Source of the DNA: a bacterium
GTDB lineage: Bacteria; Planctomycetota; Planctomycetia; Gemmatales; Gemmataceae
Assembly: GCA_017308215.1 (NCBI GenBank)
Contig: JAFKFQ010000262.1
Span: forward strand, 1-64,000
DNA: 64,000 nt
Direction of reading: 5' to 3'
This document shows, one piece after another, positions 27,207 through 41,013 of this stretch. Under the pieces are notes generated by a model. That model was not told the DNA's origin, made no database searches, and saw only the letters and a program-made list of their open reading frames with translations. Within the stretch, counting starts at the first letter, position 1; each line of letters opens with the position of its first letter. The translations under genes and the position numbers were made by a program.

Positions 27207-28145
27207 TCAGTAGTTCAGTTTCTCCGCGGCGTCGGCCAGATCCTTGTCACTGCGGCGGGTGTACCGGGCCGTCGTGGTCAGCGACTCGTGGCCGAGGATC
27301 TGGGCCAGTCCGACGAGGTCGTTGCCGGTGTCCGCGAGGTACTGGTGGGCCATCGTGTGCCGTAGCAGGTGCGGGTGGAGCTCGACGCCGGTGATCGCGC
27401 CGTACTTGGCGCACAGGGCGCGAACGCCCCGCTCGGTCAGCGGCCCCCGCTCGCCGATGAACACCCGGTCGGTCTCGACCGGGGGCCGGGCGTCGAGGTA
27501 CGCCTGCACCGCCCGCCGGGCCGGGAGAGGCAGCGGGGCCGTCCGCTGCTTGCCGCCCTTGCCGTGCCGGAAGACCGCCGACCCGCTCCGCTCCCCGATC
27601 AGCAAATCGTCCAGATCGAGCTGCACGAGGTCGCCGACCCGGCAGCCGGTGTACAGCAGAAGGTGGAAGACCGCGTCCGCCCGCACGTCGCTCCGCAGCT
27701 CCACCTCCCGCAGCAGACGGCGGACCTGAGACCGGTCGAGCCCCTTCGGCGCGAGCGCCTGCCGCCGCAGCTCGCGGACCGGCTGGGCGACGTTGGCGGT
27801 GACGCGGCCCACGGCGGCCAGCCACCCGAAGAACCGCCGCACCGACACCATCGCCCGGTTCACCGTGGCGACCGCCTGCCCCTTGGTCCGGCGCAGGTGG
27901 TCGCGGAAGTCGGTGATGTCCCGGGTCGTCACCCGCCCGACGACGAACCGCTCGCCGTTCGTCGCCGCGAACCAGATCACGAGCTTTTTCAGGTCGCTCA
28001 CCACCGCCCGACGGGTCTCGGGGGCGAAGTCGTTGGCGGCGAGGTACTGGTCGAGGAGGCCGGGCTCCTCCTTCCCGAGCGGCAGGCCCCCGAACGCATT
28101 ACCGCCCGAGTTCTGGCGGCCTTCTGGACGGAAATCTGACGCCAT
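27207..28145 (-). CDS. tyrosine recombinase (XerC/XerD-like)
   Basis: 312 residues. N-terminal SAM-like core-binding domain (about 25-125), then the catalytic domain: Arg in [12 protein letters not shown], Lys in [13 protein letters not shown], His-x-x-Arg in [14 protein letters not shown], His in [13 protein letters not shown] with the Tyr nucleophile. All catalytic residues are intact. It probably catalyses excision/integration or dimer resolution of the element. It follows the HTH and RuvB-like genes on the same strand at short spacing, likely one transcription unit driven from motif copy 5. Confidence 0.93.
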
Positions 28146-28205
28146 ATGGACACTCCTCCCTCGTAACTCGGGTGGTATTGGCCGTTATCGCCCCTGCTTA
28201 CCGGC

Positions 28206-28670
28206 TCAGTTCGGGCGCTTCAGGTGCAGGAACACTCGCCGCAACACTTCGCCCGAGTCCACTCCTTCGACGCCGCTCGGGTACAGCGCCTTGATCGCCG
28301 CGCCGACTTGATCCGCCGTCGGTGACGCCAACCCGAGCGCCTTGAGCCCGTCGAGCAGGTCGGTGTGCGTGCCGCCCGCCTTCGGCTTGGGGGTTACCGG
28401 GCGGGCTGGCTTGGGGGCGACGGGGCGGTGCCCGCGGGCATAGAAGAGGACCGGCTGGCAGTTGACCCCGCAGTTGCGGCGCCGCACCTCAAGGCACCTC
28501 CGCTGGAGCTCCTCGGGGTAGCACGGACGCCGGGTCCGCACGTGGTAGACCGGCGGGGGGAACACCCCTTCCCCGACGAGCTGGTAGTACCTCGCCCGGC
28601 TCAGGCCCACCATCCGGGCCATGTCCGCCACGGAGACGACGGCCTTGGTCGGCACCGGCTGGTCGCGCAT
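28206..28670 (-). CDS. MerR/AlpA-like helix-turn-helix protein (excisionase-type)
   Basis: 154 residues from ATG 28670. The N-terminal KAVVSVADMARMVGLSRARY followed by YQLVGEGVFPPPVYHV is a winged-helix AlpA/excisionase pattern, where FPPP follows the recognition helix. A Cys pair and Pro-rich linker lead to a C-terminal acidic helical domain (ADQVGAAIKALYPSG). Lies between the RuvB-like gene (20 bases upstream) and the Xer gene (60 bases downstream), so it may direct recombination or regulate the module. Confidence 0.75.
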   Translation of the reverse strand: MRDQPVPTKAVVSVADMARMVGLSRARYYQLVGEGVFPPPVYHVRTRRPCYPEELQRRCLEVRRRNCGVNCQPVLFYARGHRPVAPKPARPVTPKPKAGGTHTDLLDGLKALGLASPTADQVGAAIKALYPSGVEGVDSGEVLRRVFLHLKRPN

Positions 28671-28690
28671 GGTCGTCCTCTCGGATGAAG

Positions 28691-29653
28691 TTACTCCGGG
28701 CCGTTCGCCCGGCGGGTCAGCAGTTCGCGGCCCTCGGCGGTCAACTGCCGCCGCCCTTGGTCGTCCTTCAGGATCAGCCCGGAGCGGATCAGGAACGGCT
28801 CGATCACCTGCGACACGGTGCGGGCCGGCAGGCCGATCAGGCTGGCGACGACGTTCAGCCGGCTGGCACCCTCGGCCAGCGCGGCGAGGTACTGCCGCTC
28901 GGTCGGGCCGAGGCCGATCTCGTCGAGCCCCTCCAGCGCGCACGCCCGGGTCAGGTGTCCGCGGGTGATGGTGGTCTCCCCCTCGGCGCGGCAGACGCGG
29001 CGGCACGCCTGCAACAGCCGCAGCGCCAGCCGCGGCGTGCCCCGCGCCCGCTCGGCGATCAGGGGCGGCAGCCCGTCGTGGACCGGCCAGCCGAGGGCGC
29101 GGCCCCGCTGGGCGACCAGCGCGGCCAACTCCCCGACCGTGTAGAACTGGAACCGCAGGACGAGTCGCATCCGGTCGCGGAGGGGTTGCAGCAGGCCGTA
29201 CTCGTCCGTCGTGCTCAGCAGGAGCGAGAAGTCGTTGAGCGGGATCGACTGCGGCCCGCCCTTGGCCCGGCTCGGGAGGACGACCTTCCGCTGGTCGAGC
29301 GCGAGGTACAGCGCCGTCTGGTACTCCTTGTCGAGTTCGTGGCACTCGTCGATGTGGATCAGGTCGCGGTCCTTCGCGCCCAGCAGCAGCGCGTTGAGGT
29401 CGGCGGGGCCGGTGACCGACTGGCCGAGAACCTCGTGGAGACCCGTCCCCATCTCGGCGGCGACGACTTTCGCCACCTGCGACTTGCCGAGCCCCGGGCC
29501 GCCGACCAGCAGGGCGTGGTCGAACTTGCGGCGGTCGGCGGCGGCGGCTTCGAGGGCAACGGTGACCTGATCGACGACGCCCCGCTGGCCGATCAGGTGC
29601 GAGAGGGCGGACGGGGCGGCGTCGTTCACCTCGGTCGGTCGCTGGTCGGTCAT
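28691..29653 (-). CDS. RuvB-like AAA+ ATPase
   Basis: 320 residues from ATG 29653. Alignable by eye to RuvB: LSHLIGQRGVVDQVTVALEA, Walker A GGPGLGKSQ, Walker B LIHIDECHEL, sensor 1 LLLSTTDEYG followed by PLRDRM (arginine finger), and sensor 2 RGTPRLALRLL, then a C-terminal winged helix (RQYLAALAEGASRLN, IEPFLIRSGLI). RuvB drives Holliday-junction branch migration; this is a mobile-element paralogue, possibly acting with the Xer recombinase two genes downstream. Differs from housekeeping RuvB in the DECH box. Motif copy 5 is 41 bases upstream. Confidence 0.85.
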   Translation of the reverse strand: MTDQRPTEVNDAAPSALSHLIGQRGVVDQVTVALEAAAADRRKFDHALLVGGPGLGKSQVAKVVAAEMGTGLHEVLGQSVTGPADLNALLLGAKDRDLIHIDECHELDKEYQTALYLALDQRKVVLPSRAKGGPQSIPLNDFSLLLSTTDEYGLLQPLRDRMRLVLRFQFYTVGELAALVAQRGRALGWPVHDGLPPLIAERARGTPRLALRLLQACRRVCRAEGETTITRGHLTRACALEGLDEIGLGPTERQYLAALAEGASRLNVVASLIGLPARTVSQVIEPFLIRSGLILKDDQGRRQLTAEGRELLTRRANGPE

Positions 29654-29694
29654 GGCGGACTCCGTCGGTTGTGGTGGGGGTGATCGCCCGAGGG

Positions 29695-29712
29695 CATAGC
29701 GGGTGTCCGTCA
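29695..29712 (-). promoter_or_regulatory. shared upstream motif, copy 5
   Basis: Minus-strand TGACGGACACCCGCTATG, 41 bases before the ATG at 29653 of the RuvB-like gene. Confidence 0.75.
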
Positions 29713-29910
29713 CTCGACCCGGAGAGAGGATCGCGCACCCGGCGCGGTTCGCAATGTCGGTAACGCCGGGCCGAGACCGAACGCGACGGACGACGGCCTG
29801 TTGAGCAAGGCCGCGGGGGGTTCATGGGGGGCAGATCCGATCACGACGGGCGAGTACCGGGAGTTCGGCGGGTACGGTGGGGTCGTGATGGTCTGAAGCG
29901 AAGGAGGTAC

Positions 29911-29932
29911 GGGGGCGACACCAGTCGCCCCC
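29911..29932 (-). terminator. hairpin terminator of the ArdC gene
   Basis: Perfect 9-base stem (29,911-29,919 with 29,924-29,932) and a 4-base loop, 11 bases past the stop codon on the minus strand. Confidence 0.6.
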
Positions 29933-29942
29933 TGAACGGGCG

Positions 29943-30857
29943 TCACGCCACGGCAACCTCCTCGGGCTGCGCCTGCTGTTGGCTGGAGAAGCCGAGGAAG
30001 AAGGTGGCGGCGCGACTGGCGTCCGCCGTCACCCGGAAGATGTACCTCGGGTCGGCCTTCATCGCGCCGAGCCAGTATGCGAGGTACGACGTGCTGTTCG
30101 ACCGGTCGCCATGCGGAAGACCGAGGTCGGTCGCCACGAAGCTCGCCGCCAGCTCGGCCCGAAGTTCGCCTTCGGCGTAGGAGCCGGTCCAGCCGAGCCG
30201 GTGCTCGGTCCAATGCCCGGCCAACTCGTGCAGGACCGTCTGGTAGTAGTCCTGCTCCTCCGCGAATTGGGCCTTGGGCGGCAGCTGGACGTAGTCACCG
30301 TCGGCGCCGGGCGCCGGCCTGCGGTAGTACGCCCGGTCGCCGCCGTGGCGGATGTCGGCCCCGGTGGCGGCGATGGCCCGCTCAGCTGGGAGGTAGTCGA
30401 TGAAGTCCACGCGGTCTCGGGCTTCGGCCCGGAGGCGGTCGGCGGCCTCGCCTTCGACCTGATCGACGGAGAACACCGTGAAGTTCCGCAGGACGAGGTA
30501 CTTGCCCTCGCGTTCATCGCCGTCCTCGGCGTCCTTCGGCTTCCGCGTGACCGGCTTGCAGAATACGACGTTGCAACCCCACCGCCCGCTGGGGACGTGC
30601 GGGGGGCGGGCCTTGACCCGGCACCCGATCTCGTGCCACTGGCGGAAGGTCGCGTAGCGGCTCGACGTGAGCCCGAGGCGTTGGCGGTACAGTTGCAGGA
30701 GCAGGACGTTGATGCCGGTGTAGCGGCGTCCGGTGGCGGCGTTCGCGGGCGGGCCGGACGTGCCCCACGGGCACTTCCACGGGGGCACGCGGCCCTTCTC
30801 CAGAGCGTTGACGATCTCGGCGGTGATTTGCTGCCGGGTCTCGTTCGGACTGGACAT
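29943..30857 (-). CDS. ArdC-like antirestriction protein (ssDNA-binding domain plus zincin)
   Basis: 304 residues from ATG 30857. The N-terminal DUF1738 domain starts NETRQQITAEIVNALEKGRV and PPWKCPWG, with the family's RRYTGINVLLL. The C-terminal metallopeptidase-like part has YYQTVLHELAGHWTEHRLG (HExxH) and the downstream AELAASFVATDLGL with the third-ligand Glu. ArdC proteins protect incoming mobile DNA from restriction during transfer, which fits an element lying next to restriction systems. Motif copy 6 is 41 bases upstream. Confidence 0.88.
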   Translation of the reverse strand: MSSPNETRQQITAEIVNALEKGRVPPWKCPWGTSGPPANAATGRRYTGINVLLLQLYRQRLGLTSSRYATFRQWHEIGCRVKARPPHVPSGRWGCNVVFCKPVTRKPKDAEDGDEREGKYLVLRNFTVFSVDQVEGEAADRLRAEARDRVDFIDYLPAERAIAATGADIRHGGDRAYYRRPAPGADGDYVQLPPKAQFAEEQDYYQTVLHELAGHWTEHRLGWTGSYAEGELRAELAASFVATDLGLPHGDRSNSTSYLAYWLGAMKADPRYIFRVTADASRAATFFLGFSSQQQAQPEEVAVA

Positions 30858-30898
30858 GACCGTGCTCCTCGTGGGGTGGGTGGGGATCACCACGAGCG

Positions 30899-30916
30899 GG
30901 TAGCAGGTGTCCGTCA
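30899..30916 (-). promoter_or_regulatory. shared upstream motif, copy 6
   Basis: Minus-strand TGACGGACACCTGCTACC, 41 bases before the ATG at 30857, the same distance as copy 5. Confidence 0.75.
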
Positions 30917-31339
30917 GTTCGAGATGGATTCGGCCACTGGCGTGCCGGGGGCGGTGCAGCGTGTGAGCCGATAGAACGCAACGAAATCGGCACGAAGTCC
31001 CGAGCCCGGCCATGCCCGACCAGTGCCTTCGAGACCCACCGACCAGATCCGGCAGGAGTGCGCCACCAAGCTCCGCTCCGCCGAAACCGGCGACATGTTC
31101 ACGACCATTCCCGGGTGCTCTCTGAGCGGGACCGGCGCACGCCGAGCATGGTGGGGATGCGGATCACGCCCGACGGTTGCCTGCTGGCTCGAAGGCAAGG
31201 CCACGTACAAGGCGTTTCTTGGGGCCGGGGCCGACCTGACCCGCAACCTCCACGGGGTCGTCGAGGTCGCCGGGCTGGACGGCGACGAGGCGGGTAACCT
31301 TCTGGGCCGGATCGCCGCGAACAAGGGGGCAACGGACCG
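30917..31339. other. spacer between the mobile-element module and the Pycsar operon
   Basis: About 420 bases with open frames but none with convincing protein character or a ribosome site. It is the boundary between the motif-bearing module and the defence genes. No repeat or tRNA was seen. Confidence 0.5.
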
Positions 31340-32626
31340 TCAGTCGGCCAGCACCGCGAGGATCGACGGGTGCAGTTTGGAGCGCGAGACGCGCTCCTTC
31401 ACCCACTCCCGTAGGGATGGTGACGCCGCCTTGAGCCGCTCCGCGATGGCGAGGCTCTCCCCCACCTCACGCTTCAGCTCCATGAGAGTCTCGGCGATGT
31501 CCATGACGTGAAAGCGGTTGTGCCCGACCCCGAGGTCGAGAACGCAGACGACCAGATCAGCCCGGATGTGGTAGTCCGTCAACGCCTCGTAGAGCGTGCG
31601 GCACTGGGCGGCGATCTTGTCCGTGTAGGAGAAGCCCCACCCCTGCGAGGTCACGTGACCCGCGAAGCTGGCAATCAGTTCCCGCATGTCCTCTTTGCTG
31701 GCCCCGAGCATCAGCCGCGCCGCCAGCGGCGGCAACTGCATGACCGCCTCGTGGACCAGATCGGCGTCCGTTCGGAACTGGGTCAGGATTTCGAGGATGC
31801 GCTCCGCGTGTTCGGGCGACACGCTCGCCCTCGCTGAGAACTGGGCGATCAGCTTGGTCAACTCCTCGTGGGGCGAGGTCGCCGCCACGGTGCCCGAGAC
31901 GTAGTGCCACGCCTGCTTGAGATCGGCGACGGTCTGGTAGCGCTTGTCCGGGTTGGTCCGGGTGCATTTGTCGATGACCATCGCCACTCCCGGATCGAGC
32001 GAGGAGGTGTCGGTGGCGGTGGAGGCAAGCTCGCCGACGTGCAGTTCGAGCAGCAACCGGCCCAAGCTGTAGATGTCCGACCGCTCGTCGGCATTCTTGG
32101 CGTTGGCCATCTGCTCGGGGGCCATGTACAGCGGCGTCCCCATCGGGTAGCCGGTGATCGTGTGGCGGGTGCTCGCGGAGTCCAGCACTCGCCCGAGTCC
32201 GAAGTCCGTGACCACGAGGTCGTCGTCGCTGTTCATCAGGACGTTCTCGGGCTTGAGATCCCGGTGGATGACGCCCTCGCCGTGCGTGTACTCGATGGCG
32301 TCGAGGATCGAGCCGTACACCTTGGCGATCCGGTCCCCGTCGCCTTGCATCGTGCGGAGCACGTCCCTCAGCGTGTGCTGATACCTCGGCATGACGTACC
32401 AGTAGGGGGCCTCCTGCAAGTGGAGGCCGACCACCTTGACCACGTTCGGGTGGTCGAGCCGGTGCAGTAGCCGGACCTCCTCGCGGAACCGGCGGGTGCT
32501 GTCCTCGCCCAAGCCGGGCAGGAGCTTCTTCTTGGCGAAGACCTTCCCGTCCTCCTTCCGCTTGCACAGCCAGACCTCGCCGAACCCGCCAGAGCCGAGC
32601 TTCCGAAAAGCGACGTAGCTAGGCAT
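31340..32626 (-). CDS. Ser/Thr protein kinase with C-terminal helical domain, next to Pycsar genes
   Basis: 428 residues from ATG 32626, ribosome site GAGGGAA; GTG 32635 is the alternative. Canonical kinase: glycine loop LGSGGFGEV (10-18), Lys32, HRDLKPEN (121-128), DFG (141-143) and GTPLYMAPEQ. Residues about 260-428 form a helical domain unlike PASTA or membrane-anchored bacterial kinases, with FSARASVSPEHAERILEILT and YEALTDYHIRADLVVCVLDL; it may bind a regulator. No membrane helix, so cytoplasmic. It lies 69 bases after the PycTM gene on the same strand and could be the fourth gene of that operon, or an independent defence kinase. Confidence 0.85.
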   Translation of the reverse strand: MPSYVAFRKLGSGGFGEVWLCKRKEDGKVFAKKKLLPGLGEDSTRRFREEVRLLHRLDHPNVVKVVGLHLQEAPYWYVMPRYQHTLRDVLRTMQGDGDRIAKVYGSILDAIEYTHGEGVIHRDLKPENVLMNSDDDLVVTDFGLGRVLDSASTRHTITGYPMGTPLYMAPEQMANAKNADERSDIYSLGRLLLELHVGELASTATDTSSLDPGVAMVIDKCTRTNPDKRYQTVADLKQAWHYVSGTVAATSPHEELTKLIAQFSARASVSPEHAERILEILTQFRTDADLVHEAVMQLPPLAARLMLGASKEDMRELIASFAGHVTSQGWGFSYTDKIAAQCRTLYEALTDYHIRADLVVCVLDLGVGHNRFHVMDIAETLMELKREVGESLAIAERLKAASPSLREWVKERVSRSKLHPSILAVLAD

Positions 32627-32695
32627 TTCCCTCACTCCGGTAAGCCGACGAGACCGCGCACCGACGATCCCACGACACCGCCGATCATCCCCGCC

Positions 32696-33298
32696 TCAGC
32701 CGGGCAGCAGGGAGATGCAAAACACGGCGACTACCCAGCAGACGAGGCCGACGACGGTGGCTTGGGCTGAGGCCCTCACGGTCCTGTGCTTGGTGAGGGC
32801 GATGTGCGAGGTCTCAACGATCTGCGTCCCCACATCCCTGAGCCAGTCGTCCTCGGACATCCCCTTCAGTTCGGTGACGTACCTCTCGAAGTCGTGGCCG
32901 TACTGGGTGGCAACGTGGCCGAAGAAGATTCGGCACTTCGGGGCCTTCTCCCCGAACCGGGACATGACGGCGTAGATCAGCATCCCCACGGCGACGACCG
33001 AGCAGAGGGCGAAGGCGATCAGGGCCACCAGACCGACCCACGCGGGGGCCGGGGCGGGGCTGGCGGCAAGCGCCTTCTTGAGTGCCCCCACGCTGCTGAC
33101 TACGAACCCGAACATCAGGGTGTTGATGGCGAACACGAACGCCGCCTTGGTGTCGGCGAAGCGGATCTGCTCCTGCACCCCGGCCAGCACCTTGAGGCAG
33201 TTGTCGAGGCTCGACTTCCTTTCGGCGGGGTCGCCCGCGGGCTGGCCGTTCGTCGGCTGGGCCGGGGTCGTCGGGTTGCTCGCTGGTTTCTTGGCCAC
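32696..33298 (-). CDS. pycTM: Pycsar effector PycTM-like membrane protein (DUF5706 type)
   Basis: 200 residues from GTG 33298, 9 bases after GGGGAGG; GTG 33307 overlapping the previous stop is less well placed. A disordered Pro/Thr head is followed by LKVLAGVQEQIRFADTKAAF, the hallmark of the PycTM/DUF5706 family (helix, then A-D-T-K-A at the entry of helix 1). Membrane helices are at about 52-72, 86-112 and 180-198, with a cytoplasmic segment (120-178) rich in charged residues. In known Pycsar systems the effector senses cCMP or cUMP and damages the membrane, aborting infection. The family call rests on motif, topology and the cyclase two genes upstream. Confidence 0.82.
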   Translation of the reverse strand: MAKKPASNPTTPAQPTNGQPAGDPAERKSSLDNCLKVLAGVQEQIRFADTKAAFVFAINTLMFGFVVSSVGALKKALAASPAPAPAWVGLVALIAFALCSVVAVGMLIYAVMSRFGEKAPKCRIFFGHVATQYGHDFERYVTELKGMSEDDWLRDVGTQIVETSHIALTKHRTVRASAQATVVGLVCWVVAVFCISLLPG

Positions 33299-33303
33299 GC
33301 CCG

Positions 33304-33885
33304 TCACCTCCCCAGCCGCCGCTGGCAGCAGACCTTGAACTTCTTGCCGCTCCCGCACGGGCACGGCTCGTTGCGCCCGACTCCCCCCTTTTCTCGCACC
33401 GCCTCGGCGATGCCCGCCGTGCCGTGCGCTCTGGCCTCCCCGGGCCAGACGGCCTTGACCCCGGTGAATTCTTCCTTCACGAGCGCCTGCTGGTACAGGT
33501 GCTCCTTGAACAAGAAGGTGTGCGCCACGGCGAACAGGTCGTTCAACGAGTCGCCCCGCCCGAAGTCTATTCCGCTCTCGCCCGGCACGTACAGGCACAG
33601 GCTCCAGTCCGAGTTGATGTGCGAGTCGCCGCCCTTCTGCCAGCGATCCCGGTGGCTGACCAGTATGACGGTGGGGGTCGTCCCCCGGTCGGGGAAGCTC
33701 GGAGGGTACTCGACCCGCAGCGTCACTGACTCGTAGCGGTGGCCGTGCCGGGACTGGACGTGGAAGACGCCCTCCAAGTAAGCCACGCCGCCCCCGGCGA
33801 CCCCGCTGCGGAAGTCGTCGAGGGTCTGGCGCCCGATCCGCTGCTCGGCCTCCCACCGGGCCGGGTTTCGCTCGTGCCACCCCAT
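33304..33885 (-). CDS. E2 ubiquitin-conjugating-like protein fused to a SEC-C zinc motif
   Basis: 193 residues. The core matches a minimal UBC fold: strands ESVTLRVEYPPSFPD, then TPTVILVSH, then HINSDWSLCLYVPGES, where His89/Asn91 and Cys97 mimic the HPN...C active site of E2 enzymes; a long helix follows (DLFAVAHTFLFKEHLYQQAL). The end (170-187) is GRNEPCPCGSGKKFKVCC, a complete SEC-C zinc motif as on SecA. No E1 or JAB gene is nearby. The gene starts 1 base after the cyclase stop and its stop overlaps the start region of the PycTM gene, so it is an integral operon member. In CBASS, E2-like proteins modify the nucleotide synthase; by analogy it may act on the cyclase. Confidence 0.78.
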   Translation of the reverse strand: MGWHERNPARWEAEQRIGRQTLDDFRSGVAGGGVAYLEGVFHVQSRHGHRYESVTLRVEYPPSFPDRGTTPTVILVSHRDRWQKGGDSHINSDWSLCLYVPGESGIDFGRGDSLNDLFAVAHTFLFKEHLYQQALVKEEFTGVKAVWPGEARAHGTAGIAEAVREKGGVGRNEPCPCGSGKKFKVCCQRRLGR

Positions 33886-33886
33886 G

Positions 33887-35446
33887 TCAGTGCGACCGCC
33901 ACGGGCGGCTGTTGTGCCACGCGCCGGTCGTCGGCGAGGCGGCAGTGGTCACGAAGACTTGGCCTTCCTTGACGGAAGCGCCGAGGCTCCCGGCCCGTGC
34001 CGCCTTCGTCTCCTTGATCCGGTCGAGTTTGGGGAACGTCAGCCCCGTGGCGACATAGGTATCGCCGTCCTGAGCGAACTCGGCCCGCACGTCCTCGTCG
34101 TCCAGTTGGTCGTAGATGTCCTCGGAGATGCATATCTGCTTCGCCCCGGTTCGTTGCTGGAGCCGCTCGGCGGACGACACCTCCGGGCCGAAGCAGATGC
34201 CGACCCGCCGCCCCTTCTTGCCCAGTCGGGTCACGAACGCCTTGCCCACGTCCAGCCCGACCGCCACGTGGATGTCCTTGCGGTCCTTGAGGTGCTCGTT
34301 GAGGACGTGCTCCATCGAGGACTGCAACGCGATGGCGATGTCCACCGCCCTGCGGCACCGCTTGGCGTGCTTGTCGTCGCCGCACGGCATGTGCAGGATC
34401 GCCAAGATGCAGTCGCCCCGGTGCTGGAGGACCAGCCCCTCGTGGTCCGAGCCGATGACCGAGTGGAACTCGGACCGGATCATGTGGAACTGGCGGATCA
34501 GCGCGACGACCTTCTCGTCGCCCTCGGCCTCCTGCACGTAGCGGGTGAACCCGTCGAGGTCGGCGTAGACCGCCACCGCCGCCGTCCGCTTGCAGTTCCG
34601 CTCCGTCAGCACGTCGAGGTCGATCAGGGCGGCGGCGTCGGAGACTTCGATCTGGGCGAGCGGCAAGTCGTCCCGGTACTCCTCCGTCTTCTTCCGCCAC
34701 TTGTCCGCGTCCCACGACACCCCGAGGTCGTCGGCCAGATCGGGGTAGCGGTCCCACCGCAGGCCCGTGGCCCGGTAGCTCTGGACCCCGCTCACCACGG
34801 CGGACTTCTTGAAGTGCTCCTTCAGGCCGTCGGGCAGGTGGTCGTACACGTCTCGCGTGACGGTGATCGTGTCCGTGGCCCCGAGGATCTTGGCGGCGAG
34901 GTTGGCGCACGACCCCAACGAGATGAGTTCACGCTCGCCGGTCATGCCGATGTTGGCGATGTAGCTGGTGCCGCCACTCAGCCCCGCCGCGCTGCCGAAG
35001 CGGACCTCCTCGAACACCGGGTCGAACACGCCGATGACGTAGCTGTTGTGCGTGACGGCGTGGACCACGGCCCTCCTCGCCCGCTCGGCGGCGTTCGACC
35101 CGTCGTCGGGGTCGTAGGGCTTGTAGGCGAGGGCGTGAAGGCGGACGGTCTGCCGCTGGATGTCGCCGATGTCGTCGGCGTCCATCAAGTCCCGCTGGAC
35201 CTTGCGGAGCACGCTCGCCGCCCGAACGAGCTTCTTCTGCTTCTGCTTGTCGTTCCCGGCGTCGGCGACCGCCCCGTGGAATCCGGGCACGTCCACGTAC
35301 AGGTGGACGCCTTCGGCCCGCCGCACGTCCTTCGTGCCCAGATTGCGGAAGTCCATCGTGCGGCGTAGGTCTTGGACATCAACCTCGAAGTCGTGGAAGT
35401 CGCGGTCCCTGACCCGCTGTCTCGACCGCCCCTCGTTCCATCCCAT
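33887..35446 (-). CDS. pycC: Pycsar-type nucleotide cyclase with tandem cyclase domains
   Basis: 519 residues from ATG 35446 with GGGAGGG six bases ahead. The second domain (about 285-450) is a class III cyclase: metal Asp in VYADLDGFTRYV (D296/D298), second metal Asp345 in QHRGDCILAIL, and FGPEVSSAERLQ at the position of the transition-state Asn/Arg block. The first domain (about 45-205) has LYVDVPGF and SLGSCANLAAKIL at matching places but lacks the second metal Asp, so it looks like a degenerate partner half. The adjacent PycTM-like effector points to a cCMP- or cUMP-making Pycsar cyclase rather than a housekeeping adenylate cyclase; the product is inferred. Confidence 0.8.
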   Translation of the reverse strand: MGWNEGRSRQRVRDRDFHDFEVDVQDLRRTMDFRNLGTKDVRRAEGVHLYVDVPGFHGAVADAGNDKQKQKKLVRAASVLRKVQRDLMDADDIGDIQRQTVRLHALAYKPYDPDDGSNAAERARRAVVHAVTHNSYVIGVFDPVFEEVRFGSAAGLSGGTSYIANIGMTGERELISLGSCANLAAKILGATDTITVTRDVYDHLPDGLKEHFKKSAVVSGVQSYRATGLRWDRYPDLADDLGVSWDADKWRKKTEEYRDDLPLAQIEVSDAAALIDLDVLTERNCKRTAAVAVYADLDGFTRYVQEAEGDEKVVALIRQFHMIRSEFHSVIGSDHEGLVLQHRGDCILAILHMPCGDDKHAKRCRRAVDIAIALQSSMEHVLNEHLKDRKDIHVAVGLDVGKAFVTRLGKKGRRVGICFGPEVSSAERLQQRTGAKQICISEDIYDQLDDEDVRAEFAQDGDTYVATGLTFPKLDRIKETKAARAGSLGASVKEGQVFVTTAASPTTGAWHNSRPWRSH

Positions 35447-35626: not shown

Positions 35627-36031
35627 ATGTCCACCGTGGGAGATCGGATCAAGAAGCGGAGGGCCGAGCTTGGGTGGACTCAAGACCAACTGGCGCAGAA
35701 GGCCGGGATCAGCAAGTCGTTCCTGTCCGATCTGGAGAACGGGAAGCGGAGCGTCAGCGCCGACAACCTGCTCGACATCGCCCGCGTGCTGAGCCTCAGC
35801 CTCGACTACCTGATGAAAGGGGGAGAGACCGGAGCGAAGCCTGCCGAGGTGCAGATCCCGGCGTCCCTCGCCGCCTTCGCCGAGGATGAGGGGCTGACGT
35901 TCAAGCAGGCCCTCGCACTGCTCAGGATGCGGGAGCAGATCGTCGCCCACCGCTCGACCTCGAAGAAGGAAGGGGTGGACAAGGTGGACTGGCAGAGGTT
36001 CTACGAGGCGGTGAAGGAGTTCCTCGAATGA
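35627..36031 (+). CDS. XRE-family repressor (CapH/ImmR-like)
   Basis: 134 residues from ATG 35627. DNA-binding domain at the N-terminus (GDRIKKRRAELGWTQDQLAQ, then AGISKSFLSDLENGKRSVSA), followed by a linker and a C-terminal LTFKQALALLRMREQI-type helical part. Its last codon overlaps the start of the ImmA/IrrE gene (ATGA). This pair layout is that of ImmR/ImmA and of the CapH/CapP regulators of CBASS and other defence systems, in which the protease cleaves the repressor after DNA damage. It probably represses itself and the divergent Pycsar operon. Confidence 0.85.
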   Translation: MSTVGDRIKKRRAELGWTQDQLAQKAGISKSFLSDLENGKRSVSADNLLDIARVLSLSLDYLMKGGETGAKPAEVQIPASLAAFAEDEGLTFKQALALLRMREQIVAHRSTSKKEGVDKVDWQRFYEAVKEFLE

Positions 36032-37068
36032 GCCGACTCGACGACGAGCCCGACGTGATCGAGCAGGCCCGGAGACTGCGGCTGGCCGGACACGGCAACC
36101 CCGTGCAGGCCATCGTCGGCCACTGCCTCGACCGCATCCGGCGTTGGGTCCAGTCGGACGGCCCGGTGGCCACCATCGGGCAGCTTGAGGCGCTCGTCAC
36201 CCGCCGCCTGCGTATGGTCTTCGAGGAGGTCGAGTCCGACGAGGGCCTCGCCGCCCTGATCCGCAAGTACATCCTGCTCGGGGAGGGGGTGTTCGCCTAC
36301 CTCAAGCACGACCTCGACGGCGACACGTTCGGGGCTACCTACCGCCGCAGCACGGCGGCACCCGACGCCCCGGATCGGCTGGTGGCGATCATCGACTGCC
36401 GGGGTGACAAGGGGGCACGCCGGTTTTTCACCCGCTGGCACGAGGTCGCACACTTCCTCGTCGAGCCGGACCCGGAGGAGGTCGAGACCCCGGTTCACCG
36501 GGCCTCGGACTCGCCGTTGGAGCGGCTGATGGACGAGATCGCCGCCCACGCCGGGTTCTACGAGCCGATCTTCGGCCCGGCGTTCGACCGGGAGATGGCG
36601 AGCCGTCCCCGACTGACATTTCAGGTCGTCGAGGCGGTTCGCGGCCAGTGTTTTCCCGACGCCAGCTTCCAAGCCACCCTGTTCGCCTGCCACCGCAGGC
36701 TGATGACGCCGGTGGTCTACGTCGAGGCGGAAGAACGGCTCAAGGCCGAGCACGAACGGCAGATCAAGGGCGGTGTGCAGTGGCTCTTCGAGGAGGCCCG
36801 CCCGGAGGCCCAGCTTCGGGCAGCGCAGGTAGTGCCGAACGCCGCCGCCCAGAGGGCGAAGCTGTTCATAGCCCCCAACATGCGCATCCCGTCCTCGTCG
36901 GTGATCCACCGACTCTTCTTCGACAGCCTCGGGTCGGAAGACACCGGGCGGGAGAACCTGAACACGTGGGAGCACTCTGGCGGGAAGCGGCTGGCGGATC
37001 AGGAGGTCTGGGTCGAGGCGAAGAAGGTCAAGGGCCGGGTGGTCGCCATCGTCCAGCCGGTGACGTGA
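36028..37068 (+). CDS. ImmA/IrrE-family metallopeptidase (CapP-like)
   Basis: 346 residues. The zinc site is RWHEVAHFLVEPD (HExxH at about 138), with further acidic ligands downstream in MDEIAAHAGFYEP (the ExxxH/A helix of IrrE-like proteases). The domain after about residue 230 is specific to longer members and may sense the inducing signal. Start overlaps the XRE stop by 4 bases. Expected role: cleave the XRE repressor on damage or infection and induce the Pycsar operon. Confidence 0.85.
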   Translation: MSRLDDEPDVIEQARRLRLAGHGNPVQAIVGHCLDRIRRWVQSDGPVATIGQLEALVTRRLRMVFEEVESDEGLAALIRKYILLGEGVFAYLKHDLDGDTFGATYRRSTAAPDAPDRLVAIIDCRGDKGARRFFTRWHEVAHFLVEPDPEEVETPVHRASDSPLERLMDEIAAHAGFYEPIFGPAFDREMASRPRLTFQVVEAVRGQCFPDASFQATLFACHRRLMTPVVYVEAEERLKAEHERQIKGGVQWLFEEARPEAQLRAAQVVPNAAAQRAKLFIAPNMRIPSSSVIHRLFFDSLGSEDTGRENLNTWEHSGGKRLADQEVWVEAKKVKGRVVAIVQPVT

Positions 37069-37118: not shown

Positions 37119-38318
37119 ATGACCGACGCATTGTTCGAGCAACTGCTGTACGAGGAGGAGAGTACCACGCTCGACTTCAAGAGGGAGCAGTATCGCTTCG
37201 TGAAGGCCAGCAACGAGGACAAGTCCGAGCTCCTCAAGGACATCCTCGGCTTTGCGAATGCGTGGCGGCGCTCCGAGGCGTACATCCTCATCGGGGTCGA
37301 GGACGTGCGGGGCGGGCGGGCCAACGTCGTCGGCATCCCGGCTACGGACCACCTCGACGACCACTCGTTGCAGCAGTTCGTGAACAACCTGACCAACCGC
37401 CCCGTCCGCTTCCACTACGAGGCGTTCGGTTTCGAGTCTAAGCAGATTGGAGTGGTCCGCATCGAGGAGCGGCAGGCCCGCCCGCTCTACCTCAAGTCGA
37501 ACTACGGCAAGCTCAAGAAGACCGAGGTGTACGTCAGGAGGGGTAGTTCCACCGACCCGACGAAGCCAGCCGGGCCGGACGAGATCGCCCTGATGGGTCA
37601 GGGCTCCGGGCCGCAGGACGCCGAGTTGGTGGTCGAGTTCGCCGACGTGGCGCGGGACGACTCACTGGGTACGCATGTCTCGTGGGAGGCCGAGTTCTGC
37701 GAGATGCCGCCGATGGAGACGATCCCTGACCTCACCCGCACGATGCAGCGGCGCCCGCTGGGCATCGACCCTTCGGCGATCCAGTTCGACCCGATGAACC
37801 GGCCCAACGAGGACTACTTCCGAGAACTGGCGAACTACGAGTTTGTTCGGCGCCTATTCCGGCCCGTGCGGTTAGTCGTGAAGAACGTCGGCCAAGTCGC
37901 CGCCAGTAGTGTGCGGGCCGAACTGATTGTCCCCACGAATGCCGGGGCAATGGTGCTGGACTCGTTGGACTTGCCCGACCCGCCGGAGCGCCGGGCCGAG
38001 TTCGTCTCCCCCGCCCTCAAGAAGATCCGCCCGGCGTTCCGGCGATCCCCCGGCGACGTGACCATCGACAAGAACGACGACAGGTTCCGGGTGGAGATTG
38101 ACTGTGGGGGGCTCCAGCCGGGTAGACGGGTGTGGTCCGATGTCTTCTTCATTGGCAAGGGAGCCAGTGGAGATCTGTGTCTGAGCGGGCAGGTGTTCGC
38201 CGAGAACCTACCCCAGCCGAAAGACTTCACTCTGCTGATCTCGGTCAATGTCAACCAAACCCGGATGTCGGTGAAGGAGTTGAAGGCGCTGCCGGGACAG
38301 GCCGGGACGGACGACTAG
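37119..38318 (+). CDS. AlbA_2 / Schlafen-type putative DNA-binding protein
   Basis: 399 residues. The N-terminal roughly 150 residues match the AlbA_2 domain: EESTTLDFKREQYRF, LLKDILGFANAWRRSEAYIL, IGVEDVRGG and a closing KKTEVYVRRGSSTDPTKP. The remaining 250 residues form a beta-rich domain of unknown type. AlbA_2/Slfn proteins are frequent in defence islands and several act as RNases or regulators; here the function is not deducible. It begins 50 bases after the ImmA-like gene, same strand. Confidence 0.8.
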   Translation: MTDALFEQLLYEEESTTLDFKREQYRFVKASNEDKSELLKDILGFANAWRRSEAYILIGVEDVRGGRANVVGIPATDHLDDHSLQQFVNNLTNRPVRFHYEAFGFESKQIGVVRIEERQARPLYLKSNYGKLKKTEVYVRRGSSTDPTKPAGPDEIALMGQGSGPQDAELVVEFADVARDDSLGTHVSWEAEFCEMPPMETIPDLTRTMQRRPLGIDPSAIQFDPMNRPNEDYFRELANYEFVRRLFRPVRLVVKNVGQVAASSVRAELIVPTNAGAMVLDSLDLPDPPERRAEFVSPALKKIRPAFRRSPGDVTIDKNDDRFRVEIDCGGLQPGRRVWSDVFFIGKGASGDLCLSGQVFAENLPQPKDFTLLISVNVNQTRMSVKELKALPGQAGTDD

Positions 38319-38348
38319 CCGGGCACGTCCTTCGAGGGAATCCTAACG

Positions 38349-39377
38349 ATGAGCCGACCTAACTCAATGAAGATCGGGGCCATCGAGAACACCGGCCCGA
38401 ACACCCTCGTCGCGTTCCTCCGCAACGCCGGGGACGGCTGCGCCCGCATCGACATCGCGGTGGCGTTCATCACGGCGGCGGGGCTCGACTCCCTCCTTTA
38501 CCTCCTGAAGCGGGCCGCGTCCCGAGGCCGGGTTCGCGTTCTGACGGGACTGTACCAAGGGTTCACCGATCCGAAGGCCCTCTGGACGCTGTTGGGGGAG
38601 CAGGAGCAGACCGGCGGTCGCATCTCGGTGAGGCTGTCGCGGGACGGCCACTTCCACTGGAAGGCATACTTGCTGGTAAAGGAGGCCACCGCCAAGGTCG
38701 TCGTCGGGTCGTCGAACTTGACCGACGACGGCCTCCAGCAGAGCGGCGAGTTGAACCTCGTCCTGTCGGTGCCCACCGCCTCGAAGGAGTTCCGCGATCT
38801 ACAAGGAGTCTTCGACCGGCACTGGGACGGGCTCGGCGAGCCGTTGACCGCCGAGATCACCAGTAAGTACGAGCGGTGGCGTAAGGAGGCGGACCCGGTG
38901 CCGCCGCACCGCTCTGTGCCGATCCGCAAGATACTCGGCGGCACTCCGAAAAAGAAGCAGCCGGTGGTGCAGGAGGCCCGCTACTGGCGTACCTGCATTA
39001 CCGGGTACTTCGCCAAGGAGACCGAGCGAGTCCTGAAGACCGCGACCAACTGGGACGAGCGGGGCCTCATGTACTTCAGCACGTGGCGACCCACCTTCAG
39101 GGTCGGCGACCGGGTGATCCTGTTCGACCTCAGCGACAACTTCCTCGGCCTGATCGAGATCAAGGACACCACGCGGACGCCCGAGCGGACCCCGGACGGT
39201 CACCATTTCGCCGCGTACCGACAGGTGAAGGGGTTTGCCCGCCGCAGGCTGGTCAAGAACCGCTGGAAGGCGTTGAAGGCGGCGGGGCTGCTCAGGAGGA
39301 AGGACGACGCCTACCTGACGCGGAAGATGGCGAAGGAGCGGTTCGACCTGTATCTCGATCAGCTGAAGAAGTCGTAA
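38349..39377 (+). CDS. phospholipase D-like nuclease domain protein
   Basis: 342 residues. One HKD motif: HFHWKAYLLVKEATAKVVVG followed by SSNLTDDGL (H-x-K-x4-D-like, GSSN), preceded by a beta-sheet core (ARIDIAVAFITAAGLDSLLY, RVRVLTGLY). A single motif implies dimerisation for catalysis, as in BfiI-like nucleases. The C-terminal half contains a lysine/arginine-rich DNA-binding-like region. It lies 43 bases upstream of hsdM, so it may belong to the restriction locus as an accessory nuclease. Confidence 0.75.
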   Translation: MSRPNSMKIGAIENTGPNTLVAFLRNAGDGCARIDIAVAFITAAGLDSLLYLLKRAASRGRVRVLTGLYQGFTDPKALWTLLGEQEQTGGRISVRLSRDGHFHWKAYLLVKEATAKVVVGSSNLTDDGLQQSGELNLVLSVPTASKEFRDLQGVFDRHWDGLGEPLTAEITSKYERWRKEADPVPPHRSVPIRKILGGTPKKKQPVVQEARYWRTCITGYFAKETERVLKTATNWDERGLMYFSTWRPTFRVGDRVILFDLSDNFLGLIEIKDTTRTPERTPDGHHFAAYRQVKGFARRRLVKNRWKALKAAGLLRRKDDAYLTRKMAKERFDLYLDQLKKS

Positions 39378-39420
39378 GCACGTGCCGAAGGTCTGGGTGG
39401 TCATGGGGGAACACACGCTG

Positions 39421-41013
39421 ATGGGCCTGTTCGGCAAGCACGGCAGCGGCAAGAAGCTCGACGTGCCCGCCCTCGAAGGGTGGCTCTGGGAGGCCGCGTG
39501 CGTCATCCGGGGGCCGCTCGACGCGCCGAAGTTCAAGGACTACATCCTGCCGCTGATCTTCCTGAAGCGGCTGTCCGACGTGTTCGACGACGAGATCGCC
39601 CACCTCGCCCACGACTTCGGCGACGAGCAAACCGCCCTCAAGCTGATCGAGCAAGACCGCAAGCTCGTGCGATTCTTCATCCCCAAGAAGGCCCGCTGGG
39701 CGAGCATCGCCGAGCGGACCAGCGGGGTCGGGGAGTACCTGACCGACGCGGTGCGAGCCGTCGCCAAGGCCAACCCGCAACTGTCGGGCGTGGTGGACAT
39801 CACCGACTTCAACGCGACCGCCGCGGGCCAGCGGATCGTCGATGACGGGCGACTGGCGGTGCTCGTGCAGGTGCTCAACAACCCCAAGTACCGGCTCGGG
39901 CTGGACGACGTGGAGCCGGACATCCTTGGCCGCGCCTACGAGTACCTGCTGCGTAAGTTCGCCGAGAGTCAGGGCCAGTCGGCGGGCGAGTTCTACACCC
40001 CTCCCGAGATCGCAATCGTCATGGCGAGGTTCCTCGACCCGAGGCCCGGCCAGACGGTTTACGACCCCTGCTGCGGCTCGGGCGGCTTGCTCATCAAGTG
40101 CCACCTGCGGCTGCTCCATACCAAGGGCAAGAAGGACAACGGGAGGCTCAAGCTCCCGGCTTCGGTCGCCCCGCTCAAGTTGTTCGGACAGGAGATCAAC
40201 CCATCGACGTTTGCGATGGCGAGGATGAACGCCTTCATTCACGACATGGAGGCCGAGATCGGGCTGGGCGACACCATGCACCGCCCGGCGTTCACCGAGG
40301 GCGAGGGGAAGTTGCGGCTTTTCGACCTCGTAACGGCCAACCCGATGTGGAACCAGAAGTTCGACAGCAAGACCTACGAGAACGATACCTACGAGCGGTT
40401 CAGCCGGGGCGTGCCACCGTCGTCGAGCGCCGACTGGGGCTGGGTGCAGCACATGGCCGCGCACCTGAAGCCGACCGGAAAGATGGCCGTTGTGCTCGAC
40501 ACCGGGGCGGCGAGCCGGGGTAGTGGCAACACCGGCTCGAACAAGGAGCGGGACGTTCGCAAGCAGTTCGTCGAGGCCGACTTGATCGAAGCCGTGCTCC
40601 TGCTGCCCGACAACCTCTTCTACAACACGACGGCCCCCGGCGTGGTCATAGTGCTCAACCGCAAGAAGCGAAGGCCGGGGGAGATCGTCGTCATCAACGC
40701 CTCGAAGCTGTTCACCAAGGGCCGACCAAAGAACCACCTCGAAGACGGTCACGTCCAGCAGATCACCGAGGCGTACCACGAGTGGAAGACGGTAGAGGGG
40801 CTGGCGGCTGTCATCACAAAGGAGGAGGTCGTCAAGAACGACTACAACCTGTCGCCGAGTCGCTACGTGTCGGTCGGCGGGCAGGAGGAGGTGCTGCCGC
40901 TGGAGGAGGCCGTCGTGCTGCTTCAGGAGGCCGAAGAGGAGCGGGCAGAGGCCGACAAGCAATTGGACGCCGTTATGGCGAAACTGGGACTCGCAGGGTG
41001 GCGGAATGGATGA
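39421..41013 (+). CDS. hsdM: type I restriction-modification system, methyltransferase subunit
   Basis: About 530 residues from ATG 39421, which has GGGGGA ten bases ahead; ATG 39403 and GTG 39382 are upstream options. The N-terminal helical domain is LEGWLWEAACVIRGPLDAPK and the catalytic domain has GEFYTPPEIAIVMARFL, SAM motif VYDPCCGSGGLL and the target-base motif as LVTANPMWNQKF, an NPMW variant of the usual NPPF/Y. It makes N6-methyladenine with HsdS. The stop overlaps the hsdS start by 8 bases. Confidence 0.93.
   Translation: MGLFGKHGSGKKLDVPALEGWLWEAACVIRGPLDAPKFKDYILPLIFLKRLSDVFDDEIAHLAHDFGDEQTALKLIEQDRKLVRFFIPKKARWASIAERTSGVGEYLTDAVRAVAKANPQLSGVVDITDFNATAAGQRIVDDGRLAVLVQVLNNPKYRLGLDDVEPDILGRAYEYLLRKFAESQGQSAGEFYTPPEIAIVMARFLDPRPGQTVYDPCCGSGGLLIKCHLRLLHTKGKKDNGRLKLPASVAPLKLFGQEINPSTFAMARMNAFIHDMEAEIGLGDTMHRPAFTEGEGKLRLFDLVTANPMWNQKFDSKTYENDTYERFSRGVPPSSSADWGWVQHMAAHLKPTGKMAVVLDTGAASRGSGNTGSNKERDVRKQFVEADLIEAVLLLPDNLFYNTTAPGVVIVLNRKKRRPGEIVVINASKLFTKGRPKNHLEDGHVQQITEAYHEWKTVEGLAAVITKEEVVKNDYNLSPSRYVSVGGQEEVLPLEEAVVLLQEAEEERAEADKQLDAVMAKLGLAGWRNG

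Follow-up and report, generated by a model that had tools for sequence, protein, structure and literature searches.

A Pycsar operon (pyrimidine cyclase system for antiphage resistance) at positions 31340-35446 of the planctomycete window was found to encode a stand-alone E2-like protein (E2, ubiquitin-conjugating enzyme) between its cyclase and its effector. It is likely, at roughly two chances in three, that the cyclase PycC is itself the substrate of ubiquitin-like transfer by this E2, which would prime cyclic-pyrimidine synthesis. The window is the whole 64,000-nucleotide stretch of DNA that was analysed (contig JAFKFQ010000262.1 of assembly GCA_017308215.1). Four genes lie compactly packed on its minus strand in the order PycC, E2-like protein, PycTM and kinase. 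That the operon is a Pycsar variant carrying a stand-alone E2 of the type used in CBASS (cyclic-oligonucleotide-based antiphage signaling systems), and that these components form one unit, is strongly supported. Novelty most probably lies in the disordered C-terminus of PycC, which appears to match the type of its partner enzyme. The features that carry the argument are:

33887..35446, minus strand: pycC, long Pycsar cyclase of 519 amino acids (aa) with two cyclase-fold domains (PADLOC PycC, PF00211)
33890..33931, minus strand: disordered C-terminal tail of PycC, residues 506-519, ending SRPWRSH (by motif and a predicted local distance difference test score, pLDDT, below 50)
33304..33885, minus strand: E2-like protein of 193 aa with a C-terminal SEC-C and the candidate catalytic Cys97 in H89-I-N-S-D-W-S-L-C97 (PADLOC E2, PF02810)
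33319..33375, minus strand: SEC-C zinc-binding motif of the E2, residues 171-189 (PF02810)
32696..33307, minus strand: PycTM membrane effector of about 200 aa, with a GTG start at 33307 or 33298 (PF18967, PDLC02364)

An earlier note on this DNA had claimed a Pycsar cyclase, a PycTM effector and tight gene packing, and all three claims hold. The cyclase is PycC-like by profile (PDLC02366 at E 7e-98 over residues 1-493, PDLC00765 at 4e-86, and Pfam PF00211) rather than grouping with housekeeping enzymes, and the membrane protein matches PF18967 at 7e-12 and PDLC02364 at 6e-26. A single base separates pycC from the E2 gene, and PycTM either overlaps the E2 stop codon (GTG 33307) or follows it across a 5-base junction (GTG 33298).

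The linkage of cyclase and E2 was examined across genomes. A 13-row PycC alignment was scanned against one genome per species (84,980 species) and the best 80 of 135 relatives were kept; with 12 plasmid loci, two planctomycete loci and the window, these made 95 loci, or 94 once two on the same contig (L066 and L084) were counted as one. E2 calls came from a profile search of six-frame open reading frames (ORFs) with models seeded from the surveyed loci. An E2-type gene was found directly downstream of the long PycC, on the same strand, in 90 of the 94 loci, a count that describes long PycC and not all Pycsar, the seed alignment being mostly of E2-linked cyclases. The four loci lacking an E2 call comprise three that end inside PycC at contig ends (L087, L145 and L161) and one with a disrupted frame (L111). 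Measured over 91 rows, in which one contig appears twice, the distance from the PycC reading frame to the start of the E2 profile match had a median of 17 nucleotides and a maximum of 94. Three types of E2 make up the 90: (i) the window type (7 loci, all planctomycete); (ii) the E2-ntca/Crich class, a name taken from Pfam and confirmed with Pfam on four loci (58 loci, nine of which share 95% identity or more with another row and were retained in the counts); and (iii) fusions of E2 to the ubiquitin-activating enzyme E1 (25 loci, 24 of them with a JAB match). Cyclase and E2 adjoin each other in seven planctomycete genomes, that of the window among them, a recurrence which argues that the pairing is not due to chance, and the conserved linkage across loci excludes the E2 as chance cargo. 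The proposal of the earlier note that the E2 belongs to the system is borne out. Its suggestion of an undescribed composition survives in that the operon is a Pycsar variant and fails in that an E2-type gene after long PycC is the rule among the loci sampled and no one-off.

Compared with the window, the planctomycete relatives have cyclases of 65-68% identity and E2s of 54-61%. The effector was found to vary while cyclase and E2 stay: the window encodes PycTM and the other six planctomycete loci PycTIR, with one of the latter (L085) having an extra PycTM match on the opposite strand 3.8 kb away. Among the PycC loci examined, window-type E2s occur beside PycC in planctomycetes and, in one case, on a plasmid of Bacteroidota. 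In a PycC tree built without L132, the seven planctomycete PycC form one clade, and the E1-E2 rows form another, plus the long-branch L122, which falls inside the E2-ntca rows and is of unsure placement. Five short PycC on plasmids had no E2 match in their loci at E values up to 1. No relatives of the E2s or of a Chryseobacterium PycC were found in the viral contigs scanned, and a search of phage records with a Vibrio E2 gave no match. Several variations on the gene order were also seen: (i) on a Bradyrhizobium plasmid (L077:2247-4325), PycC and E2 are followed by a DUF2235 protein at the effector position; (ii) on an Acinetobacter plasmid (L079:5502-6259), the E2 and its Cys-rich domain are two overlapping genes; and (iii) in L078, L093, L131, L155 and others, the long PycC-E2 pair is adjoined by another PycC, a short one with a TIR effector, such that these loci apparently hold two Pycsar units.

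The closest solved relative of the window cyclase is 6yii_A (E 1e-36, residues 2-448). The AlphaFold2 model of the window cyclase (pLDDT 84.9) shows two cyclase-like repeats, and D296 and D345, the metal ligands predicted by analogy with class III cyclases, are invariant in alignments of 13 and 28 rows. The cyclase could instead be a housekeeping signaling enzyme in an operon not meant for defense, given how often class III cyclases are matched in relatives (77 of 149 genomes). This explanation is scarcely credible and was rejected on the PycC profile match, which spans the full length, on the sparse distribution in the phylum (2 of 392 genomes at E 1e-30) and on the likeness to 6yii_A; the PycTM or PycTIR partners, the plasmid relatives, and the HsdM, PLD-nuclease, Schlafen-type and integrase genes nearby likewise speak against it. 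In excerpts of PMC11224242, the Pseudomonas aeruginosa PycC of structure 6yii is placed in clade A, whose members have two cyclase domains, and production of cyclic cytidine monophosphate (cCMP) is reported for clade E only. Since clade E alone is known for cCMP, cyclic uridine monophosphate (cUMP) is the product expected of the 6yii-like PycC of the window.

Comparison of the PycC C-termini revealed that the tail corresponds to the type of E2 encoded next door. All 7 PycC beside a window-type E2 end in [KR]PW-x(1-4), compared with 0 of 83 other PycC, while a GF[AS] end was found on 25 of the 25 PycC beside E1-E2 and on none of the 65 others. Both patterns were first noticed by eye, and just the last five KPW loci described below serve as a test. 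Among 1313 machine-called ORFs (minimum length 100 aa) from 179 loci, the [KR]PW-x(1-4) end occurred on 21, representing 15 synthase genes of this kind (some present in several overlapping loci) and no other ORF, and the GF[AS] end on exactly the 25 E1-E2 PycC. For the E2-ntca class no terminal-residue rule was found; a basic-Pro-aromatic pattern, recognized post hoc, fits 49 of its 58 PycC, or 40 of 49 after removal of rows at least 95% identical. None of these motifs was present on the five short PycC that have no E2. As the planctomycete PycC are one clade, the weight of the tail argument rests on unrelated folds.

Such folds were found beside E2s of the same PADLOC group. Of the synthases directly upstream of these E2s, 18 of 19 end strictly in [KR]PW-x(1-4), and all 19 do when PW is accepted. 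This count excludes three L. salivarius plasmids (H49, H50 and H56) and a Carnobacterium plasmid (L167), where an IS30 transposase gene (an insertion sequence, IS, element) sits directly upstream of a SEC-C E2 gene in the expected place of the synthase. A short PycC of Chryseobacterium beside a related plasmid E2 ends in RPWLKRS, and a metallo-beta-lactamase-fold protein of Runella, upstream of another (L163), in KPWQRG. The ends of CD-NTases (cGAS/DncV-like nucleotidyltransferases) upstream of further plasmid E2s are KPWCRS in Haliscomenobacter, KPWFKQ in Vibrio gigantis, KPWKNI in Aliarcobacter, KPWGDTY in Cytobacillus and KPWRN in Ligilactobacillus. Five loci were opened after the idea had been noted, with four strict matches and five when PW is accepted: Roseivivax (KPWFPGE), Enterococcus (an E. 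faecalis CD-NTase, ISPWSR) and three planctomycete loci found via PADLOC E2 models alone (RPWRRNA, KPWGSGR and KPWSE). The upstream genes of these last three are CD-NTases by PADLOC, one of which, unlike the rest, fits PDLC00803 best. The E2s of the KPW loci match the PADLOC CBASS E2 models, and it is by these that the group is defined; SEC-C was considered as a common mark and dropped because its Pfam match is not universal.

These findings bring up a broader and more tentative idea, an open possibility rather than a favored one, that [KR]PW-x(1-4) is a portable sorting signal carried by unrelated immune synthases and read by an E1-free, sortase-like stand-alone E2, which would cut behind the motif, retain the acyl group as a thioester and ligate the synthase to lysine. 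The folds concerned would be long PycC, short PycC, CD-NTases of different PADLOC models and the metallo-beta-lactamase-fold protein; each of the other E2 types would recognize a tail of its own (GF[AS] with E1-E2, basic-Pro-Tyr/His with most E2-ntca, and HTFYG with a short E2). Were this true, any immune enzyme could gain E2 control by acquiring the tail. As a candidate portable signal for stand-alone bacterial E2s, the motif offers a way to look for more E2 substrates by sequence, and point mutations or an exchange of tails would put it directly to the test. A check of 71 genomes from relatives of the family of the window gave two CD-NTases (L187 and L188, both planctomycete) that have no KPW. 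Close to their C-termini both have HTFYG, with DHDPNNDS or S after it, and downstream of each is a shorter gene that is E2-like by motif (profile match of 1e-5 in L187, none in L188), a possible further tail/E2 pair. Separately, metallo-beta-lactamase-fold proteins encoded with ThiF E1-type genes in L173, L174 and L175 end near KPMG or QPMG, and a '6A-MBL' anti-phage system that includes a cap2_3 protein is named in NCBIfam.

The E2-like protein of the window matches the PADLOC models PDLC00872 and PDLC00865 at 4e-15 and the Pfam family SEC-C (PF02810) at 2e-10; at E values up to 1 SEC-C was its sole Pfam match, with no PF20298 (E2-ntca). It was missed at E 1e-10 in whole-genome searches with two PADLOC E2 models, and by tblastn it shares 31% identity over 129 aa (4e-6) with the Haliscomenobacter E2. 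On these sequence comparisons it is clearly related to the PADLOC E2 group, not closely, and would be a distant member. The His89 and Cys97 columns are invariant in 12 aligned E2s (four of them planctomycete) and in seven planctomycete rows. The structural model runs in the order helix, four strands, active-site loop and helices. Foldseek ranked nearly only chains of E2s and ubiquitin E2 variants (UEVs), none of them at E 0.001, and VIA gave a top Z of 8.4 among the matches listed, the best being UEV and E2 proteins; against 8hsb_B, the E2 of the Serratia CdnG-E2 complex, the model scored Z 7.5 (root-mean-square deviation 3.5, 127 residues). The model lends moderate support to a fold like that of ubiquitin-conjugating (UBC) enzymes.

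The UEV domains that rank as the closest structural matches bind short peptides rich in Pro, and the E2 could alternatively be a non-catalytic UEV-like adaptor that docks the KPW tail and holds PycC off (or on) until infection with no covalent bond, and a docking motif needs no fixed terminal residue. We regard this as unlikely though worth keeping in mind: the Cys and His columns are invariant across the 12 E2s, and the sister systems with E1-E2 and JAB have a Gly-Phe-Ala/Ser end that fits conjugation. Conjugation is the likely mechanism for the window E2.

For the window, conjugation could proceed as follows. The E2 would bind PycC by its flexible [KR]PW-x(1-4) tail and take this onto Cys97 as a thioester, probably trimming the residues after the motif; trimming is proposed because the operon has no E1 gene. 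In the 2024 Serratia work of Yan, the C-terminus of the synthase was reportedly trimmed by the E2, and if the E2 of the window trims the tail as well, the variable residues after KPW would be the leaving group. The E2 would then ligate PycC to a lysine, either on a second PycC molecule or on some protein close by, and this ligation would prime the cyclase. On infection, primed PycC may make a cyclic pyrimidine, most likely cUMP, which would open PycTM so that the cell is killed or arrested.

Several observations weigh against PycC as a conjugation substrate. The thioester, the trimming, the ligation, activation as opposed to inhibition, the identity of the nucleotide and the role in phage defense are all steps that we infer. 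No E1 gene lies in the window operon, and an E1-like protein elsewhere in the genome was not searched for; likewise, no JAB match was found beside the E2-only PycC loci. The residue following KPW varies, so the conjugated residue cannot be named, and the partner ending in ISPWSR lacks the K/R. The tail common to the seven planctomycete PycC, a single clade, could reflect ancestry alone. Of ten E2s from outside the planctomycete PycC loci, Pfam SEC-C was above the cut-off in three, below it in three and absent in four. The active-site region of the E2 was modelled at low confidence (pLDDT ~45), and a structural Z near 8 is middling. In addition, CBASS architectures without Cap2/Cap3 have no conserved terminal residue according to excerpts of PMC10097602.

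Even if the E2 does conjugate PycC, the tail might serve as a degron or restraint signal, such that conjugation silences or removes PycC until infection. C-terminal motifs commonly act as degrons, and conjugation of a CBASS cyclase to PspA has been proposed to prevent activation (PMC11153139, in part). This is rather improbable in our view, as Cap2 conjugation increased the output of cyclic GMP-AMP (cGAMP) in the portions of PMC10097602 consulted, and no protease was noticed adjoining the E2 in the loci examined.

The proposal of priming by conjugation draws on likenesses to known systems, and the earlier note was judged right in likening the E2 to the E1/E2 proteins that control CBASS synthases. 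The operon shares with Pycsar the PycC and PycTM assigned by profile and the swap of effector between PycTM and PycTIR; however, Pycsar in the accessible part of PMC11224242 consists of cyclase and receptor only, the main text being without 'ubiquitin' or 'operon', whereas in the window an E2 gene lies between. With type II-short CBASS (a CD-NTase and a stand-alone E2, as in Serratia CdnG-E2, 8hsb) it shares the PADLOC group and similar fold of the E2, the E2 gene directly after the synthase, and the KPW or PW end, which is present on all ten of the CD-NTases examined beside these E2s. The difference is that the synthase of the window is a class III cyclase, of a fold unrelated to CD-NTases; the CD-NTase model PDLC00780 found nothing in the genome of the window at E 1e-15. 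For E2-only CBASS, cyclase-to-cyclase conjugation has been proposed as the activation step (PMC11153139, in excerpt). Type II CBASS with Cap2 (E1-E2) and Cap3 (JAB) is paralleled by the 25 Pycsar loci with E1-E2, of which 24 have a JAB match, and by their fixed PycC C-terminus: in type II CBASS with full-length Cap2/Cap3 the synthase ends in Gly or Ala, the residue conjugated (PMC10097602, in part), which the GF[AS] end recalls. In contrast, the window operon has neither E1 nor JAB, and its PycC tail is of the KPW type. The Pfam families E2-ntca (PF20298) and E2-Crich (PF20272) are similar in being stand-alone E2s directly after PycC (58 loci) but differ from the window E2, which has no PF20298 match and in which SEC-C replaces the Cys-rich domain. 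The very name E2-ntca suggests that its authors had noted the cyclase link, such that the neighborhood itself may be in print.

No description of E2 control of PycC or of the KPW tail was found in the literature searched, key subscription papers lying outside it; within the portions available, neither is described in PMC10952713, PMC12948488, PMC12657218, PMC10286901 or PMC10419184. The significance of the system would lie in a second, unrelated class of synthase with matching tail signals and conjugation-type enzymes, as ubiquitin-like priming of cyclic-nucleotide synthases could then be a general mechanism of bacterial immunity and not an oddity of CBASS.

The genes that flank the cyclase, the E2 and the effector were examined in turn:

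31340..32635, minus strand: Ser/Thr kinase, probably outside the system (Pkinase 2e-43)
35627..36031, plus strand: candidate divergent XRE-type repressor, in a CapH-like position (HTH_3 2e-18)
36028..37068, plus strand: HExxH protein (WHEVAH) encoded downstream of the XRE gene, likened to ImmA/CapP just from its motif and position (no Pfam match)

The kinase had been put forward as an added regulatory layer, with all four genes forming one system in which phosphorylation takes part. It is encoded on the same strand, 69 bases after PycTM (the distance given in the earlier note) when ATG 32626 is taken as its start or 60 bases with GTG 32635. Nonetheless, no kinase homologue was found beside PycC among the neighbors listed for other loci, the genome of the window has 129 kinase-domain matches, and the kinase itself had no match at E 1e-40 among the best 30 candidates per genome in 58 relatives. 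Membership of the kinase is very improbable and was rejected, as it is not conserved beside PycC and such genes are frequent in the genome.

Candidate regulators lie divergently from pycC. XRE homologues were called upstream of PycC in all seven other planctomycete contigs, and a homologue of the HExxH gene lies next to the XRE gene in five of the seven. A check for CapH and CapP found HTH_3 in the divergent first gene and HExxH, with no Pfam match, in the second; the arrangement, with divergent XRE and HExxH genes beside an immune operon, may be akin to CapH + CapP, a tentative assignment made from motif and position. Regulators that respond to DNA damage, CapH + CapP among them, have been reported adjoining immune operons, those of Pycsar included (PMC13373217, in excerpt). 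A conserved palindromic operator was sought upstream of PycC in five loci, which gave just short, differing inverted repeats. Further out, the minus strand at 27207-31013 encodes a phage-type integrase, a RuvB-like AAA protein and an ArdC-like protein, and the plus strand at 37119-41013 a Schlafen AlbA_2 protein, a PLD nuclease and an HsdM methylase. With integrase, ArdC, Schlafen, PLD nuclease and HsdM genes around it, the operon looks to be set in a mobile defense island.

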